Virus record (IMG/VR): IMGVR_UViG_3300042564_002756 | Span: 1-64,000 of that record | Source of the DNA: a virus | Direction: 5' to 3' (one strand) | Length of the DNA: 64,000 nt | In this document: in pieces, positions 21,083 to 27,354 of the stretch | How positions within the stretch are numbered: the stretch's first letter is position 1 | How the letters are laid out: the number at the start of each line of letters is the position of its first letter | The notes under the pieces: model-generated | Told to the model about the DNA's origin: nothing | The model's input: only the letters and a program-made list of their open reading frames with translations | The model's database searches: none | Program-made: the position numbers and the translations under genes

Positions 21083-21763
21083 ATGGCAAACTATAGTCAC
21101 ATACCATATACTTACATGATAGGTTGGTCCAAACAAAAAAAATATTATTACGGTGTGCAATTCGGTAAAAATGCAAACCCAAATAATTTATGGAAAACTT
21201 ATTTTACATCTTCTAACAATGTAAAAAAGTTTATAGAAAATTATGGTGATCCAGATATAATAGAAATACGAAAAACTTTTTTGACCCCGTGCAAAGCTAG
21301 AGCATGGGAAACTAAAGTGATTCAACGAATGAATTTAGTTGAAAATCAAAATTGGTTAAATAAAACAGATAACACATCAAAATTTTATTTTGAAGGTCCT
21401 CGAGGCCCCAGAAGTAAAGAGCACACTGAAAAACTTAGAAAATCTCATATTGGTAAAAAAATAACAGCCGAACACAAAGAAAAGCTTCATACTGGAAGAA
21501 GAAATTCAAAAAACACTCCAGAACACACTGCAGCTATACTTAAAGCAGTTAAAGGGAAGAAACATACCGAAAAATCCAGAAAAAATATGGCTGATGCTTA
21601 TGCAAAAAGAGATATCGAAGAAGTTAAAAATAATGCTAGTAATGCTGGAAAGAAAAGTGCCGCGTTATACAAGAATGATCCAGAAAGACAAGCTGCACAT
21701 AGTGAAAGAATGAAAATGTGGTGGGCAGCGCGCGGACAACTTCTATCTATGGAAGGACAATAA
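21083..21763 (+). CDS. Homing endonuclease (GIY-YIG-like with NUMOD3 repeats)
   Basis: 226 residues. N-terminal YTYMIGWSKQKKYYYGVQFG resembles the degenerate GIY-YIG start seen in phage homing endonucleases, followed by a CKARAWETKVIQRMN helix and WLNKTDN. From residue ~110 there are NUMOD3-type DNA-binding motifs (SKEHTEKLRKSHIGKK; TAEHKEKL; NTPEHTAAILKAVKGKKHTE). It sits free-standing between gp13 and gp14, starting 3 bases after gp13. Likely a selfish mobile gene. Its stop lies one base before the inferred gp14 start, so it may have replaced the gp14 leader. Confidence 0.8.
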   Translation: MANYSHIPYTYMIGWSKQKKYYYGVQFGKNANPNNLWKTYFTSSNNVKKFIENYGDPDIIEIRKTFLTPCKARAWETKVIQRMNLVENQNWLNKTDNTSKFYFEGPRGPRSKEHTEKLRKSHIGKKITAEHKEKLHTGRRNSKNTPEHTAAILKAVKGKKHTEKSRKNMADAYAKRDIEEVKNNASNAGKKSAALYKNDPERQAAHSERMKMWWAARGQLLSMEGQ

Positions 21764-21764
21764 A

Positions 21765-22505
21765 ATTTCTACAAATGTATTTTTCCAGAACTATAACTAT
21801 TTCAATGAGCAACAACTCATTGATGATCTAGTTATAGAGTCAATCCAGATCTTTGGCGTTGATACATATTATGTGTCAAGAACGTCATCAGCGTTTGATC
21901 ATATAATGAATGAAGATAGGCTTACAGTTTTTGATGCTGCATATCAAATGGATATGTATGTTAAGACAGTTGATGGATTCCAAGGTCAAGGTGACTTCCT
22001 TTCTAAATTTGGTCTGGAAATTCGTGACCAGGTTACATTCACTGTTGCATATAGAACATTCGAGAGATTTGCAACAAAAGATAATCCTGCATTAATAAGA
22101 CCAAAAGAAGGCGATTTGGTCTACATGCCTATGAACAATAAGTTCTTTAAGGTTATGTTTGTAGAACACGAATCAGTATTCTATCAGGCTGGAGCATTAC
22201 AGGTTTATGATCTTAAATGTGAACTATTTGAATATTCCAATGAGAGATTTGAAACTGGTGTTGATGATGTTGATAAACATTATGTTGATTTTAAAACAAC
22301 CGAAATTAACAATCTTGAAGATATGTTTGCAGCAGACCCAATTGCTAAAAATATCTTCTATGAAGAAAAAGGTAATGATATTATAGACTTTACCGAAATT
22401 GATCCATTCAGCGAGACAATATTCCCACCATCGAACTATTTTGTAACAGCAGATTCAACTAAGGTAACCGCCGACGACGGTGGCATTACTGCAGATACTA
22501 TATAA
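21765..22505 (+). CDS. 14: gp14-like neck protein with a non-standard ATT start
   Basis: 246 residues if read from ATT 21765 (T4 gp14: 256). The frame has no in-frame ATG upstream of the conserved core; GTG 21873 would delete 36 residues including NVFFQNYNYFNEQQLIDDLV, which is the conserved gp14 N-terminus. GGAAGGAC (21751-21757) is well placed as ribosome-binding site for ATT 21765, immediately after the endonuclease stop. The frame is closed by TGA at 21711. Core motifs VFDAAYQMDMYVK and FLSKFGLEIRDQVTF support gp14, the neck ring protein. Confidence 0.75.
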   Translation: MSTNVFFQNYNYFNEQQLIDDLVIESIQIFGVDTYYVSRTSSAFDHIMNEDRLTVFDAAYQMDMYVKTVDGFQGQGDFLSKFGLEIRDQVTFTVAYRTFERFATKDNPALIRPKEGDLVYMPMNNKFFKVMFVEHESVFYQAGALQVYDLKCELFEYSNERFETGVDDVDKHYVDFKTTEINNLEDMFAADPIAKNIFYEEKGNDIIDFTEIDPFSETIFPPSNYFVTADSTKVTADDGGITADTI

Positions 22506-22514
22506 GAGGAACAA

Positions 22515-23867
22515 ATGGCTAAACAAACCATCAATATAGGAACTACGGCCAATGACCGTACCGGTGATCCTTTAAGAACCGCATTTACTAAAACAAATAG
22601 TAACTTTACTGAACTATATGCAAATGTCGCAACATTGAATAGTTCTGTAGTCACTGATGTTTCGGATTTAACTGATACTGAAGGATTATTTTTCTCTGGT
22701 GATTATAGAGATCTTTCCAATACCCCATTTATCGGTACAGATGTTTCAGATTTAACTGATACTGAAGGGTTACTTTTCTCCGGCGACTATGATGATCTTT
22801 TCAATACTCCATTTATTGCAACTGATATATTAGATTTAACAGATAATAATAATCTATTAACTGTAAAAGATCATATTGAGTTAACTGGTATATATCAAAC
22901 ATCCAATAACATCATTTCATTTACAAAAGCACCAAATACAGATTCAAATACAGTCTTTGATACGATATCTGAATATGTAATTCTTACAAGAGATGCATCT
23001 GGTATTGGTGGTCTGGGCGGCGGCATCTATAATAGTGCATTCGAAGTAGCCTATGATGTTGCCATAAGCCCAATATCAACAATATGGAATGCAGATGGCT
23101 GGGATGATGTATCAGATATTGAAACAAGATATTATCAAACTTTCAGACAGGCACTTCGCAATAGCGTAGGTGCAAATATTGTTGGTGCTGAACTTATTAT
23201 GAAGGATACAGCAAGTAACGAATATTACAAGATTAAATTTTCTCAATGGGCACAGGGTGCTAGTCACGACGGCAGTTTTGCATATACAAGAGAGAAAATA
23301 GATACTACTACACCTATCGGAATTACATTCTATGATGGATCTACATTACCGAAAGCACCAAATACAAAACCAAAATTTGAACAATCATATGTAGGTGATT
23401 TTGGAGGATATGGCCTAACTATTTCACAAGCTGGTAGACAAGTTTATATTTATGATAATATTGTAGAAATTCCTAGTTACAATGAGCAAAACTTTAAAAT
23501 TGGTGATGTAATTCAAATTATTACTGGTGGCTTTGCATCAACTATAAGACCTAAAGTAAATGACGATATCGAATTACCAGATGCTACTCTCTATATTCAA
23601 GGTGAAACAAATTCTGTAGCATCTTTTGATATACCAGCAAGATCTATGGCTTTTCTTAGTAAAATTGCTCAAAATATTTGGCAACTTTCTATAAGTAATT
23701 CTTCAGTTATAAAAAATGATTTAGCACCAAACACAAGCATAGGTGATAGCACAGATGTAGAAGGTATAGTTGCGTTTGATTCTACTTATTTCTATTACTG
23801 TACTTCAGACTATACCGGATCTGATAATATTTGGAAACGAATTGCTTGGAGCAATGATACCTGGTAA
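22515..23867 (+). CDS. Virion structural protein (neck/whisker position)
   Basis: 450 residues. N-terminal INIGTTANDRTGDPLRTAFT and NSNFTELYAN is a very common phage structural module. Residues ~48-110 hold three repeats of DVSDLTDTEGLFFSGDY-type, ending SNTPF. The remainder is beta-rich. Sits between gp14 and gp15, where T4-like marine phages often carry an accessory neck or fibre protein. Function as a whisker/fibritin analogue is inferred from position only. Confidence 0.6.
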   Translation: MAKQTINIGTTANDRTGDPLRTAFTKTNSNFTELYANVATLNSSVVTDVSDLTDTEGLFFSGDYRDLSNTPFIGTDVSDLTDTEGLLFSGDYDDLFNTPFIATDILDLTDNNNLLTVKDHIELTGIYQTSNNIISFTKAPNTDSNTVFDTISEYVILTRDASGIGGLGGGIYNSAFEVAYDVAISPISTIWNADGWDDVSDIETRYYQTFRQALRNSVGANIVGAELIMKDTASNEYYKIKFSQWAQGASHDGSFAYTREKIDTTTPIGITFYDGSTLPKAPNTKPKFEQSYVGDFGGYGLTISQAGRQVYIYDNIVEIPSYNEQNFKIGDVIQIITGGFASTIRPKVNDDIELPDATLYIQGETNSVASFDIPARSMAFLSKIAQNIWQLSISNSSVIKNDLAPNTSIGDSTDVEGIVAFDSTYFYYCTSDYTGSDNIWKRIAWSNDTW

Positions 23868-23877
23868 GGAACTTTAA

Positions 23878-24693
23878 ATGGCTTTTGTAAATTATTTTTA
23901 TAATGCAACTACTAAAAAATACATAGCTCTTTTCGGAACTATGTTTAATAAAATTTCTATTGCACGTGATGATCCAAATACTGGTGATGAAGTACAGCGT
24001 ATGGTTGTGCCTATTTCATATGGCCCTTATCAAAAATTTCTTGCAAGAGTAAATCAAGATCCAGACTTAAATAGAAAAACTGCCATCACACTTCCTAGAA
24101 TGGCTTTCGAGATAACAGGAATGGAATATGATGGTTCAAGGAAAGTTAATTCTGTAAGAAGAATTTCTGGTCAAACACACAGTGATGATAAAAAAACATT
24201 TCAGTATGTTGGAACACCTTATAATCTGAATTTTACGCTTAGTATTATGACTAAGTATGCTGAAGATGGAACACAAATATTAGAACAAATAATCCCTTTC
24301 TTTAAACCCGAATGGACTTACACTGTAAAGTTAATTGATAATCTTGATCCAATAGATATTCCACTAATTCTAAATTCCGTGAACATGGAAGATCTGTATG
24401 AGGCAGACTTTGAAACTAGAAGAAGTCTCTTATGGACTATTACATTTACAATGAAGGCTTGGTATTTTGGTCCACAGAGAGAAGGTAGTGTAATAAAGTT
24501 TATTGATATCAGATCGCACACCAAAATTGACACAACCGCAACACCAGAAGGTCAAATTACAATACAGCCTGGTTTAACTGCAAATGGGCAACCAACAACA
24601 TCACTTGATGAAACACTTGATTATGAACTTATTAATATTGATGATGATTGGGGAATAATTACAATTTTTAGAGATGAGATTGAGGTAACATAA
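23878..24693 (+). CDS. 15: gp15-like tail sheath stabiliser / tail terminator
   Basis: 271 residues (T4 gp15: 272). N-terminus FVNYFYNATTKKYIALFGTM matches the 'YFYN...RY..L.G..F' start of gp15; PRMAFEITGMEYD and ILEQIIPFFKPEW are conserved core strands. gp15 caps the sheath and joins it to the neck. Preceded by AAGGAAC. Confidence 0.85.
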   Translation: MAFVNYFYNATTKKYIALFGTMFNKISIARDDPNTGDEVQRMVVPISYGPYQKFLARVNQDPDLNRKTAITLPRMAFEITGMEYDGSRKVNSVRRISGQTHSDDKKTFQYVGTPYNLNFTLSIMTKYAEDGTQILEQIIPFFKPEWTYTVKLIDNLDPIDIPLILNSVNMEDLYEADFETRRSLLWTITFTMKAWYFGPQREGSVIKFIDIRSHTKIDTTATPEGQITIQPGLTANGQPTTSLDETLDYELINIDDDWGIITIFRDEIEVT

Positions 24694-25136
24694 TGAGTGA
24701 TGATAAGATTGCAAATGCACTGGGTTTGAAGCCTCTAGCTGAAGTTTTAGATGCGACTGTAGAACCTTCAACTGAACTTGCATTAGCAGATCCGGTTGAA
24801 ATTGTCACTGTCATTGCAGAAGATAATGAAACTGTGAGAGATATTGAACAGGCAAGAGGTAATATAAAGAATATCATTGAGCAAGGTGATGATGCACTTA
24901 AGGAAATGATGTCTCTTGCAAAACAATCCGAGAGTCCAAGGGCATTTGAAGTTGCTTCAACTTTGATGAAAACACTTTTGGATGCAAACAAAGACTTTGT
25001 TGAAATGTCTATGAAGAAAAAGTATGCAGTGGATGAAGTCAATGGACCAAAAGAAGCTGCTCAGACTAATGTGACAAATAATAACTTGATTGTATCCACT
25101 GCGGATCTATTGAAAATGCTCAAAGGAGAAACTTGA
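24693..25136 (+). CDS. 16: gp16-like terminase small subunit
   Basis: 147 residues (T4 gp16: 164). Acidic N-terminus, then the coiled-coil core ARGNIKNIIEQGDDALKEMM and AFEVASTLMKTLLDANKDFV typical of T4-type small terminases. Overlaps gp15 by one base (TAATG) and is followed by the terminase ATPase genes. Confidence 0.82.
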   Translation: MSDDKIANALGLKPLAEVLDATVEPSTELALADPVEIVTVIAEDNETVRDIEQARGNIKNIIEQGDDALKEMMSLAKQSESPRAFEVASTLMKTLLDANKDFVEMSMKKKYAVDEVNGPKEAAQTNVTNNNLIVSTADLLKMLKGET

Positions 25137-25138
25137 TA

Positions 25139-25732
25139 ATGACACCTGAAATGATTGAAGATTATAAAAGATGTATGGGTGATATTGAATACTTTGCTGA
25201 AAAACATATTAAAGTAAGACATGTAGAATTAGGTTTAGTACCTCTGAAATTAAACGAATTTCAAAGACAAGCTATTAAAGATTATAGCGAAAAGAATGTT
25301 TTTGCAAAATACGCAAATAGAATGGAAGGTAAAACTACTATTGCCGCTATTATTCTTTTACACCATGCAATCTTTAATCAATATAGAGTAAGTCTTATTA
25401 TGGGTCCAAAGATGCAATCAAGTAATGAAGTGTTGGATCTAATTTATGATATGCACCAAAATCTTCCAGAACACATCCAAGCAAAAATTGTTACACATAA
25501 TAAAACAAAACTAGAATTTGATAATATGTGTGCTATTATAAGTGGAGGCAGCAATACTCATCAAGGTAGAGGTAGAACACTATCAAATATCTATATTGAT
25601 GAAAGTGAATTTATGAATACTCTTGATGAAGTTTTTACTAATTTATATCCTTGTATCTCAACAGCAAATAAAGGTAAACTTTTTGCATTCACTTCAACTA
25701 GAACTTCAGAATATTTTAGAGATCATAAATGA
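25139..25732 (+). CDS. Truncated paralogue of terminase ATPase domain
   Basis: 197 residues from ATG 25139 (AAAGGAGA ten bases upstream; TTG 25133 is possible). It aligns by eye with the first ~215 residues of gp17 next door: TPEMIEDYKRCMGDIEYFAE versus TPEMLKEYMKCAEDPIYFAE; Walker A RMEGKT (61-66) versus RQAGKT; Walker B IYIDE (151-155) versus LYIDE; coupling motif TSTRTS (185-190) versus TSTPNS. It stops just before the gp17 linker and has no nuclease domain. ATGA overlap with gp17 suggests coupled translation. It could regulate or mix with the gp17 motor, or be a decaying duplicate; the intact motifs argue for function. Confidence 0.75.
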   Translation: MTPEMIEDYKRCMGDIEYFAEKHIKVRHVELGLVPLKLNEFQRQAIKDYSEKNVFAKYANRMEGKTTIAAIILLHHAIFNQYRVSLIMGPKMQSSNEVLDLIYDMHQNLPEHIQAKIVTHNKTKLEFDNMCAIISGGSNTHQGRGRTLSNIYIDESEFMNTLDEVFTNLYPCISTANKGKLFAFTSTRTSEYFRDHK

Positions 25733-27354
25733 CAGATTCTGGCGGCTACTTAGGTAATTCACTTCTTAAAAAATCTGGTACTCCAATTGAATGGACTCCA
25801 GAAATGCTCAAGGAGTATATGAAATGTGCGGAAGATCCGATCTATTTTGCTGAACGGTATATTAAAATTGTTCACGTTGATCACGGGTTTATTCCAATTA
25901 AGTTATATGATTATCAAAAAGACATTATCAATGCAATTAGTAATAATAGACGAGTTGTAGCAAATACTTCTCGTCAGGCAGGTAAAACAACTACCGCTAT
26001 GGCTATTATTTTGCACTATATATTGTTTAACGAATATAAAACTGTTGCACTTCTCGCCAATAAAGCAGCATCTGCTCTTGAAATTCTTAATCGCATCCAG
26101 ATGGCATTCGAAGCATTACCTGGTTGGTTACAGCAAGGTGTTATCACTTGGAATAAAGGTTCTATGGAATTAGAAAATGGTTGTAAGGTTATTGCCGCTG
26201 CATCATCTTCAAGTTCCATTCGTGGTAAATCTATCGCATTCCTATATATCGACGAAACTGCCTTCTTAAATAATTGGGAAGAGTTTTTTGCGTCCGTTTA
26301 TCCTACCATTTCATCTGGTAAAGAAACAAAAATTCTATTGACATCCACTCCGAACTCTTTGAATCACTTCTGGAAAATCTGTAAAGAGGCACAAGAAGAA
26401 ATTGATGAAAGAGGCAGGGGCAAAAACGGTTATATCTATATTGAAGTTACTTGGGATAAAGTTCCAGGCAGAGATGAAGCATGGAAAGAAGATACACTTG
26501 CTTCTATTAGTTGGAATATGGAACAGTTTCAACAAGAATTTTGTGGATCATTCATCGGAAGTTCCAGCACTCTTATCTCCGGAAGTAAACTGAAAGAACT
26601 TTCATTCTCCACACCTTTGCATGAAGGTGAGGGAATTAAACAATATGCAACAGCAGTCAAGGGACATGCATATGCCATGGTTGTTGACGTTTCAAGAGGC
26701 AAGGGCCTTGACTATTCTACATTCTCTGTTCTTGATATTACAACAATGCCGTATCAACAGGTTTGTACATTCAGAGATAACTACATTGGCCCCGTAGATT
26801 ACGCCAGCATTATCTACAGAATAGCAAAATTGTATAATGAGTCATCCGTATTAATTGAAATAAATGATATTGGTGGTCAAGTAGCTGACGTTCTCTACTT
26901 TGATTATGGTTACGAAAATATGCTATTTACTGAAAGTGCTGGTAGATCCGGAAAACGAATTTCAGGCGGTTTTGGTAAAAATATTGATAGAGGTATTAGA
27001 ACAACAAAAACTGTAAAATCAATTGGTTGTTCCATATTGAAATTACTAGTAGAACAAAATCAAATACTGCTTAATGACTTTGAAACTATACAAGAATTGG
27101 CCAGATTTGCTCGTAGAGGTCCTTCATACGAGGCAGAATCTGGCGCACATGATGATATGGTTATGACATTGGTACTTTTTGCTTGGTTAACTGACCAAAC
27201 ATTCTTTAAAGACATGACAGACATAAATACACTTGCAAAACTTCGTGAAAGAACAGAAGAAGAAATAGATGATTTTCTATTACCTTTTGGTTTTTATGAT
27301 AATGGAAGTGATGACATTGAGCAGCCTATTTACATGAATCCAAATAATTGGTAA
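25729..27354 (+). CDS. 17: gp17-like terminase large subunit
   Basis: 541 residues (T4 gp17: 610). ATPase domain: Walker A SRQAGKT (81-87), Walker B FLYIDE (171-176), TSTPNS (205-210). RNase H-fold nuclease: VVD with Asp 320, LIE with Glu 377, and HDDMVM with Asp 475/476. This is the packaging motor and headful nuclease. All catalytic residues are present. Confidence 0.93.
   Translation: MTDSGGYLGNSLLKKSGTPIEWTPEMLKEYMKCAEDPIYFAERYIKIVHVDHGFIPIKLYDYQKDIINAISNNRRVVANTSRQAGKTTTAMAIILHYILFNEYKTVALLANKAASALEILNRIQMAFEALPGWLQQGVITWNKGSMELENGCKVIAAASSSSSIRGKSIAFLYIDETAFLNNWEEFFASVYPTISSGKETKILLTSTPNSLNHFWKICKEAQEEIDERGRGKNGYIYIEVTWDKVPGRDEAWKEDTLASISWNMEQFQQEFCGSFIGSSSTLISGSKLKELSFSTPLHEGEGIKQYATAVKGHAYAMVVDVSRGKGLDYSTFSVLDITTMPYQQVCTFRDNYIGPVDYASIIYRIAKLYNESSVLIEINDIGGQVADVLYFDYGYENMLFTESAGRSGKRISGGFGKNIDRGIRTTKTVKSIGCSILKLLVEQNQILLNDFETIQELARFARRGPSYEAESGAHDDMVMTLVLFAWLTDQTFFKDMTDINTLAKLRERTEEEIDDFLLPFGFYDNGSDDIEQPIYMNPNNW

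Follow-up and report, generated by a model that had tools for sequence, protein, structure and literature searches.

Gene Order at the Terminase Locus

The window, a 64,000-nucleotide stretch of viral DNA (IMG/VR record IMGVR_UViG_3300042564_002756, positions 1–64,000), contained a T4-type late gene cluster. A head closure gene (21873–22505), a 450-aa fiber-like ORF (22515–23867) and the sheath stabilizer gp15 (23878–24693) preceded the terminase genes, and the sheath, tube and portal genes followed gp17. The terminase small subunit gp16 (147 aa; 24693–25136, plus strand) matched PHROG 445 (2.5e-26) and Pfam DNA_Packaging (1.7e-07), and the complete large subunit (TerL) gp17 (541 aa; 25729–27354, plus strand) matched Terminase_6N (2.9e-24), Terminase_6C (1.9e-05) and T4 gp17 structures (1.4e-107). 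Between them, on the same strand, lay a gene for a shortened TerL ATPase paralog of 197 aa (25139–25732), referred to here as gp17.2, the name under which the copy in phage phiM12 is annotated. The region 25139–27354, singled out in the original prediction, thus covers two genes, gp17.2 and gp17.

The gp17.2 ORF started with ATG at 25139, with an alternative in-frame TTG at 25133 that would add two residues. A Shine-Dalgarno-like stretch (AAAGGAG; 25122–25128, plus strand), with an anti-SD pairing energy of -8.7 kcal/mol, was located within gp16 upstream of this start. The gp17.2 stop and the gp17 start overlapped in ATGA at 25729–25732 (plus strand), as had been predicted.

Two other ORFs of the late cluster were recorded. 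The fiber-like ORF, placed between the gp14-like and gp15-like genes, had a tail-fiber-like N-terminus (PHROG 677, 7e-11), and the ORF preceding the gp14-like gene (21083–21763) resembled a homing endonuclease by eye, with no match at 0.01 in a Pfam search.

Homology, Predicted Fold and Active Site of gp17.2

The 197-residue product had been described as a paralog of the gp17 ATPase domain, and this was borne out by alignment: 69 of 190 residues (36%) were identical to residues 22–210 of the adjacent gp17, a similarity far beyond chance given the BLASTP value of 8e-44 in a single comparison. Its only Pfam match was to Terminase_6N (1e-07; 32.3 bits, cut-off 22), with no match to the Terminase_6C nuclease, and the protein stopped at about gp17 residue 210, well before the nuclease domain. 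It also matched T4 gp17 structures by sequence (1.1e-29). All three motifs named in the original prediction were located in the alignment: Walker A, RMEGKT at residues 61–66 (R61-M-E-G-K65-T-T including the conserved arginine; 25319–25339), Walker B, IYIDE at residues 151–155 (Y152-I-D-E155 including the catalytic glutamate; 25592–25603), and the TST of motif III at residues 185–187 (25691–25699), after which ten residues remained. The Q motif was present as well, so that Q motif, Walker A, Walker B and catalytic glutamate were found as in T4-type gp17. A candidate trans-acting arginine, whose role in T4-type motors we infer, was found in R144-G145 (25568–25573), 11 residues ahead of the catalytic glutamate; all of these motifs are on the plus strand.

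The AlphaFold model of gp17.2 (pLDDT 88.1, pTM 0.88) superposed on the T4 gp17 ATPase (2o0j) with Z 24.2, an rmsd of 2.0 and 31% identity, with 197/197 residues aligned, and covered T4 gp17 residues 102–310 in the numbering of the structure entry. We take the borders of T4 subdomain I to be about 59–313; with the model ending at T4 position 310, gp17.2 as modeled is ATPase subdomain I, without subdomain II/hinge or nuclease. The predicted end before the nuclease domain can therefore be placed more closely, near the close of subdomain I. Fold and motifs are those of T4 gp17 subdomain I, whereas T4 residues 1–101 and all those beyond about 310 (subdomain II and nuclease) are absent. K65 and E155 aligned by sequence to what are presumably T4 K166 and E256. 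For the most divergent relative (L021, see below), the model had a pLDDT of 91.2, and its elements followed in almost the same order.

Among seven aligned gp17.2 sequences, the Q-motif glutamine, the Walker A arginine, glycine and lysine, the Walker B aspartate and the catalytic glutamate were kept in 7/7, and the RG arginine in 6/7, being lost in L057. At columns conserved in at least 90% of 53 gp17/TerL rows, gp17.2 kept 61/68 cells in ten hand-chosen active-site columns vs 89/173 in the 25 others (permutation p 0.0016). The L090 row lacked its first and mostly also its last residue in the comparisons, and the L057 and L021 rows lacked the last residue in the dN/dS, tree, AU and active-site analyses and in the phage-collection searches; in one comparison the L057 gp16 row began a residue early. 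The RG arginine presumably occupies the position of the trans finger R139 of P74-26; a structure entry named R139A appeared among the structure matches. For the T4 motor, the available text of two reviews credits a cis arginine, and every trans arginine candidate in HK97 is reported there as eliminated (PMC7617512, PMC9958956). Subdomain II of T4 gp17 forms part of the ATP cleft (PMC9958956, available text), and ATP hydrolysis by the lone gp17.2 domain is doubtful because subdomain II is absent.

Relatives Carrying gp17.2

Two other IMG/VR metagenomic contigs (L005 and L006) carried gp17.2 with DNA identical to that of the window, which makes an assembly accident unlikely. Four more lineages were found in metagenomic contigs, at 63% (L090), 60% (L007, whose sequence ends inside the gene), 35% (L057) and 32% (L021) identity to the window protein, and parts of the L021 allele were present in L167 and L168. 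With the L090, L057 and L021 proteins as queries, further scans returned just their own contigs, L167/L168 for the L021 allele, and one distant gp17-like ORF (L169). In the phage collection, all 2364 records matching the window gp17.2 were below 60%, the best being gp17s at ∼36%, and the L057 and L021 queries gave no match of at least 60%. With phiM12 gp17.2 as the query, seven records reached at least 80% (phiM12, phiM7, phiM19 and phiN3) and the other 2479 were below 60%.

In these four Sinorhizobium phages of the genus Emdodecavirus, gp17.2 also lies between gp16 and gp17, an order read from annotation in phiM12 and phiN3 and from an identical tblastn match in phiM7 and phiM19. The phiM12 and phiN3 products (196 and 194 aa) end after motif III and keep the catalytic residues, as in the window, but share only 28–29% identity with the window protein. 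The window gene has the same traits, namely a position between gp16 and gp17, a length within 194–203 aa, an end after motif III and intact catalytic residues. A 2017 paper already remarked on this gene order as out of the ordinary, giving it no function (PMC5259590, available text), and the window adds one more gene to the group.

All eight complete records of the phiM12 and window types sat between gp16 and gp17, a count that is not unbiased because this set, like the jumbo phage set below, was partly gathered by position. Reading frames were open in all eight copies; premature stops, which among sister strains would have counted against the original prediction, were found in none. A sequencing error or split gene was disfavored by the two contigs with identical DNA and by the distant lineages with the same layout. 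One further candidate carrier, L058, turned out to be a gp17 spread over two frames (68% to gp17); it was rejected and not counted as an insert.

The gp17 proteins of phiM12 and phiN3 have Walker A RQSAKTT in place of RQAGKTT. This replacement of the glycine before the lysine by alanine occurred in phiM12 and phiN3 (L003:5935-7566, L004:5935-7566; RQSAKTT) and in Cr30 (L164; RQSAKST), i.e., in 3 of 231 gp17 ORFs tallied, with repeats included and eight ORFs without a pattern match.

Presence, Absence and Cargo at the gp16–gp17 Junction

Queries with gp16, gp17 and gp17.2 (best 80 per scan) gave 248 loci, of which 13 repeated a contig, leaving 235 that are distinct as contigs, which is not to say distinct as species. 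Among these matches, which are no survey of junction frequencies, gp16 lay within 100 bases of gp17 in 202; the rest comprised 15 with an insert, 7 ending before gp17 (two of which, L007 and L167, showed the start of gp17.2) and 11 without a visible gp16. This agrees with the earlier view that an extra copy is unusual in T4-like genomes. Among the matches listed, gp17.2 accounted for 8 of the 15 inserts (window, L005, L006, L090, L057, L021, phiM12 and phiN3). Other cargo included a homing endonuclease (L094:4274-5002, with Pfam GIY-YIG and NUMOD3, and L182:476-1204; the gap in L093 was equally long), a Pfam acyltransferase (L011:1733-2473), an ADP-ribosyltransferase-domain protein (L067:1532-2332 by Pfam; L075:4109-4924 alike by eye) and, in Cr30, three hypothetical ORFs. 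Three hypothetical ORFs also occupied the junction of S-PM2 (L249:1353-2424), which is outside the 235.

Three contigs (L087, L088 and L089) encoded a gp17 95% identical in protein to that of the window (85% in DNA for L087), yet gp16 led directly into gp17 with no gp17.2. These are fragments of 6–8 kb, so that the absence applies to the junction, and the genomes may have a copy at another place. Likewise, L181, a fragment from the same metagenome as L057, had no gp17.2 at the junction. The original prediction had named absence from close relatives that grow normally as grounds for refuting it, and this was borne out in part, by absence at the junction in fragments that carry no information on growth. 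The gene looks accessory, at a junction that takes cargo.

Overlap and Translation Signals

The overlap between gp17.2 and gp17 was ATGA in the window and L090, GTGA in phiM12 and a single base in phiN3 and L057, with none in L021. A programmed frameshift fusing the two products was rejected because the frame relation is not conserved, the overlap being 4, 1 or 0 bases among carriers. Pairing energies at the gp17.2 start were -8.4 to -8.7 kcal/mol in the window, L057, L021 and L007 (the L090 value was left out of the comparison), and those at the gp17 start were -2.2 to -2.9 kcal/mol in the window, L090, L057 and L021. As judged from this encoding, gp17.2 is probably co-translated with gp16 and gp17.

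The contrast between strong pairing at gp17.2 and weak pairing at gp17 in the window, L057 and L021 would also be expected if the insert acted in cis, taking over the Shine-Dalgarno sequence embedded in gp16, leaving gp17 dependent on coupling and lowering its dose. In phiM12 and phiN3, however, gp17 paired at -6.1 and -5.0 and their gp17.2 at just -5.4, and 118 distinct stretches upstream of gp17 without gp17.2 had a median of -4.2 (10–90% range -5.8 to -0.84), a spread within which carriers are no outliers. Shine-Dalgarno capture is thus weak as the chief effect of gp17.2 by pairing energies; it would also leave the kept active-site residues unexplained, and we consider it very improbable.

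Evolutionary Rates, Probable Allele Exchange and Origin

TerL is among the most conserved proteins of tailed phages. Rates were computed with a Nei-Gojobori script of our making; several of the dS estimates approached or exceeded 1. Between the window and L090, dS was similar for gp17.2, gp16 and gp17 (0.75, 0.69 and 0.89), while dN was 0.294, 0.093 and 0.048 and dN/dS 0.39, 0.136 and 0.055, respectively; protein identity was 63% for gp17.2 vs 93% for gp17. Between phiM12 and phiN3, gp17.2 had a dS of 0.446, a dN of 0.100 and a dN/dS of 0.225, and it alone stood out, dS being 0.05–0.10 for gp13, gp14, gp15, gp16, gp17 and gp18. The dip in identity between the two phages coincided with the gp17.2 gene, and this island of divergence is best read, from the sequences, as one allele replaced by another. 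The pairs computed, all with dN/dS below 1, support purifying selection on gp17.2 and do not demonstrate positive selection.

Exchange and diversification of alleles would be in keeping with a weapon against co-infecting phages, in which gp17.2 poisons the motor or terminase of relatives and the resident gp17 is insensitive. The homing endonucleases at the same junction (L094, L182) are typical of inter-phage competition. Nevertheless, no immunity partner was recognized, and the gp17s of carriers are not a separate group in the tree described below; such a weapon seems unlikely.

When 50 ATPase cores were placed in a tree, seven gp17.2 rows split from 43 gp17s on a branch with support of 93/97, which was not starred and involved long branches, and the gp17s of gp17.2 carriers formed no group of their own. 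Forcing window-type gp17.2 to group with window-type gp17 was rejected (AU p 0.0118), a test in which the window-type group was named after the tree had been seen and included the long branches L021 and L057; a recent duplication of the resident gp17 is thereby rejected for this type. Forcing phiM12 gp17.2 with phiM12 gp17 was not rejected (AU p 0.298), which leaves room for a separate duplication in phiM12; a common origin is compatible with the tree (93/97). From these sequence comparisons, a single origin of window-type and phiM12-type gp17.2 seems likely.

That gp17.2 is shortened and patchily distributed might suggest a decaying leftover of a gp17 tandem duplication. A decaying gene would hardly show dN/dS of 0.2–0.4, eight complete open copies and intact catalytic residues, and the window-type proteins do not group with their gp17s (AU p 0.0118); we give this explanation very little credence. 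An integral place in a mixed gp17/gp17.2 motor ring, one of the roles originally considered, would account for the kept catalytic motifs and RG arginine, and the overlap of the gp17.2 stop with the gp17 start points the same way. Against it, gp17.2 has neither subdomain II nor a translocation domain, is missing at the junction in contigs with 95% identical gp17, and has a dN six times that of gp17 between the window and L090 (0.294 vs 0.048), and such a ring appears quite improbable. For gp17.2, fast change and exchanged alleles speak against the role of a core motor subunit, which it probably does not have; it is best described as an accessory gene under purifying selection.

Counterparts in Rak2-like Jumbo Phages

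The 2017 report (PMC5259590, available text) described CBB_274 as an incomplete large terminase next to CBB_275, and noted the same in other Rak2-like phages as well as in phiM12 and phiN3. In 10 of 12 jumbo phage records, an ORF of 226–252 aa directly before TerL was a TerL-like or positional paralog (L252:27177-27884, L253:2501-3208, L254:2501-3190, L255:2501-3190, L256:2501-3211, L257:1404-2162, L258:1507-2190, L260:1486-2166, L261:2195-2914 and L263:2201-2911); these ten are nine distinct sequences, BF and SNUABM_47 being 100% identical after rounding. Of the other two, Munch had no annotated ORF directly before TerL, and the ORF before TerL in Phosso had no TerL match. The CBB gene preceding CBB_274 is annotated as hypothetical.

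Like the window gp17.2, the Rak2-like truncated terminases (CBB_274, GAP32_268) lie ahead of TerL and evolve faster than it. TerL was 94–97% identical among CBB, GAP32, Kaldavass and XbC2, whereas the paralogs were 48–57% identical (86% for Kaldavass–XbC2); for CBB and GAP32 the values were 57% for the paralog vs 97% for TerL. In five pairs, dN/dS was 0.18–0.50 for the paralog vs 0.03–0.09 for TerL. CBB_274 belongs to PHROG 5989, which was the best PHROG for the window gp17.2 (3.5e-39) and likewise for the window gp17 (1e-62). Two differences stand out: CBB_274 extends into the region after motif III of TerL, where the window protein stops, and the Walker A lysine and catalytic glutamate, both kept in the window, were lost in 10/10 jumbo paralogs, so that ATPase activity is probably not needed in this branch. 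The RG arginine was kept in 9/10 (lost in RaK2) and the Walker A arginine in 9/10. Across the nine distinct paralogs, 57/90 active-site cells were kept vs 78/206 elsewhere (p 0.035). Profile scores gave no consistent split of the jumbo paralogs between a gp17.2 and a gp17 origin.

Gene 3 of 121Q (L258:1507-2190) and ORF110 of RaK2 (L260:1486-2166) both belong to PHROG 27915, a family annotated as of unknown function. From weak homology (E 4.7e-04 and 1.9e-04 in a 28-sequence search) together with position, they are probably far-diverged TerL ATPase paralogs.

Possible Roles of the TerL-Side Paralog

The analysis established the homology, predicted fold, motifs, position, patchy distribution and pattern of divergence of gp17.2. 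Its location next to TerL, together with the overlap at the gp17 start, suggests that the phage calls for this product alongside gp17. We tentatively put forward, as a reading that falls a little short of probable, that this accessory paralog of the gp17 ATPase core, which evolves fast and can be exchanged, docks on the terminase and modulates it. Carrying a nucleotide site and an RG arginine of its own, the free core would attach to gp16 or to the ATPase face of gp17 and, once docked, might alter initiation, the hydrolysis of ATP or how many motors are active. A modulator is proposed in place of a force-generating ring subunit because gp17.2 lacks subdomain II and a nuclease/translocation domain and is absent from the junction in relatives. 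Coupled translation, binding to gp17 or gp16, ATPase activity and the direction of any effect are putative parts of this proposal.

Active-site retention, the TerL-side position and dN/dS below 1 were counted in favor of modulation. Retention of the RG arginine in the Rak2-like paralogs despite loss of the lysine and glutamate would fit a partner acting on the site of another subunit. T4 motors can accommodate one to three dead gp17 subunits (PMC9958956, available text), so that a foreign ATPase domain might be tolerated. On the other side, divergence as fast as that of gp17.2 is unexpected for a partner of the slowly evolving gp17 (63% vs 93%, window–L090), L057 and RaK2 have no RG arginine, and the arginine that the reviews credit in T4 is a cis one.

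The same rapid divergence and allele exchange bring in a different reading, absent from the original prediction, in which gp17.2 is an anti-defense decoy: a mimic of the TerL core, made with gp17, that would occupy Avs-type sensors without triggering them since the rest of TerL is absent. We know of no Avs-type sensor in the hosts of these phages. Avs systems are known to respond to the large terminase as a trigger (PMC10286901, PMC12931631, available text), and the solved Avs3–terminase complex 8dgc_E ranked sixth by Z for the gp17.2 model (Z 17.5, tied with P74-26 entries), but this match follows from TerL homology alone. The gene has the traits of a conflict gene, with patchy presence, the phiM12–phiN3 dS island and, in the window and Rak2 groups alike, protein change that outpaces TerL. 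A comparable position is known from Pseudomonas phage JBD26, in which the accessory genes Tab and anti-Tab, a defense gene and its antidote, lie at the terS–terL junction, between the terminase genes as gp17.2 does (PMC10884400, available text); they are different proteins, and the defense function was demonstrated for JBD26 (PMC10884400). A decoy would have no need to keep the Walker A lysine and catalytic glutamate, yet 7/7 gp17.2 sequences keep both, and dN/dS below 1 shows no positive selection. We regard the decoy as the chief rival reading, though one that is on the unlikely side.

Sequence evolution favors conflict, and the kept catalytic residues of the window branch favor a nucleotide-dependent partner. 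More broadly, and rather doubtfully, the TerL-side ATPase paralogs may be recurrent conflict proteins of T4-superfamily phages, i.e., allele-swapped terminase mimics shielding TerL from host sensors, with a working nucleotide site in the window/phiM12 branch and a pseudo-ATPase that keeps its arginines in the jumbo branch. Experimental work on the function of such paralogs was not found in the available text of PMC5259590, PMC7760394 and PMC7824862, nor was anything on the paralog in that of PMC10783043. Nor did the parts of the literature searched mention the island of allele exchange, the faster rate than that of TerL in the window and Rak2-like groups, or the catalytic residues consistently lost in jumbo phages.

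If either the regulator or the mimic reading holds, a gp17.2-type ATPase core beside TerL would be either a concealed packaging-motor regulator or a counter-defense mimic, and with phiM12, phiN3, CBB and GAP32 as cultured carriers, both ideas are directly testable.
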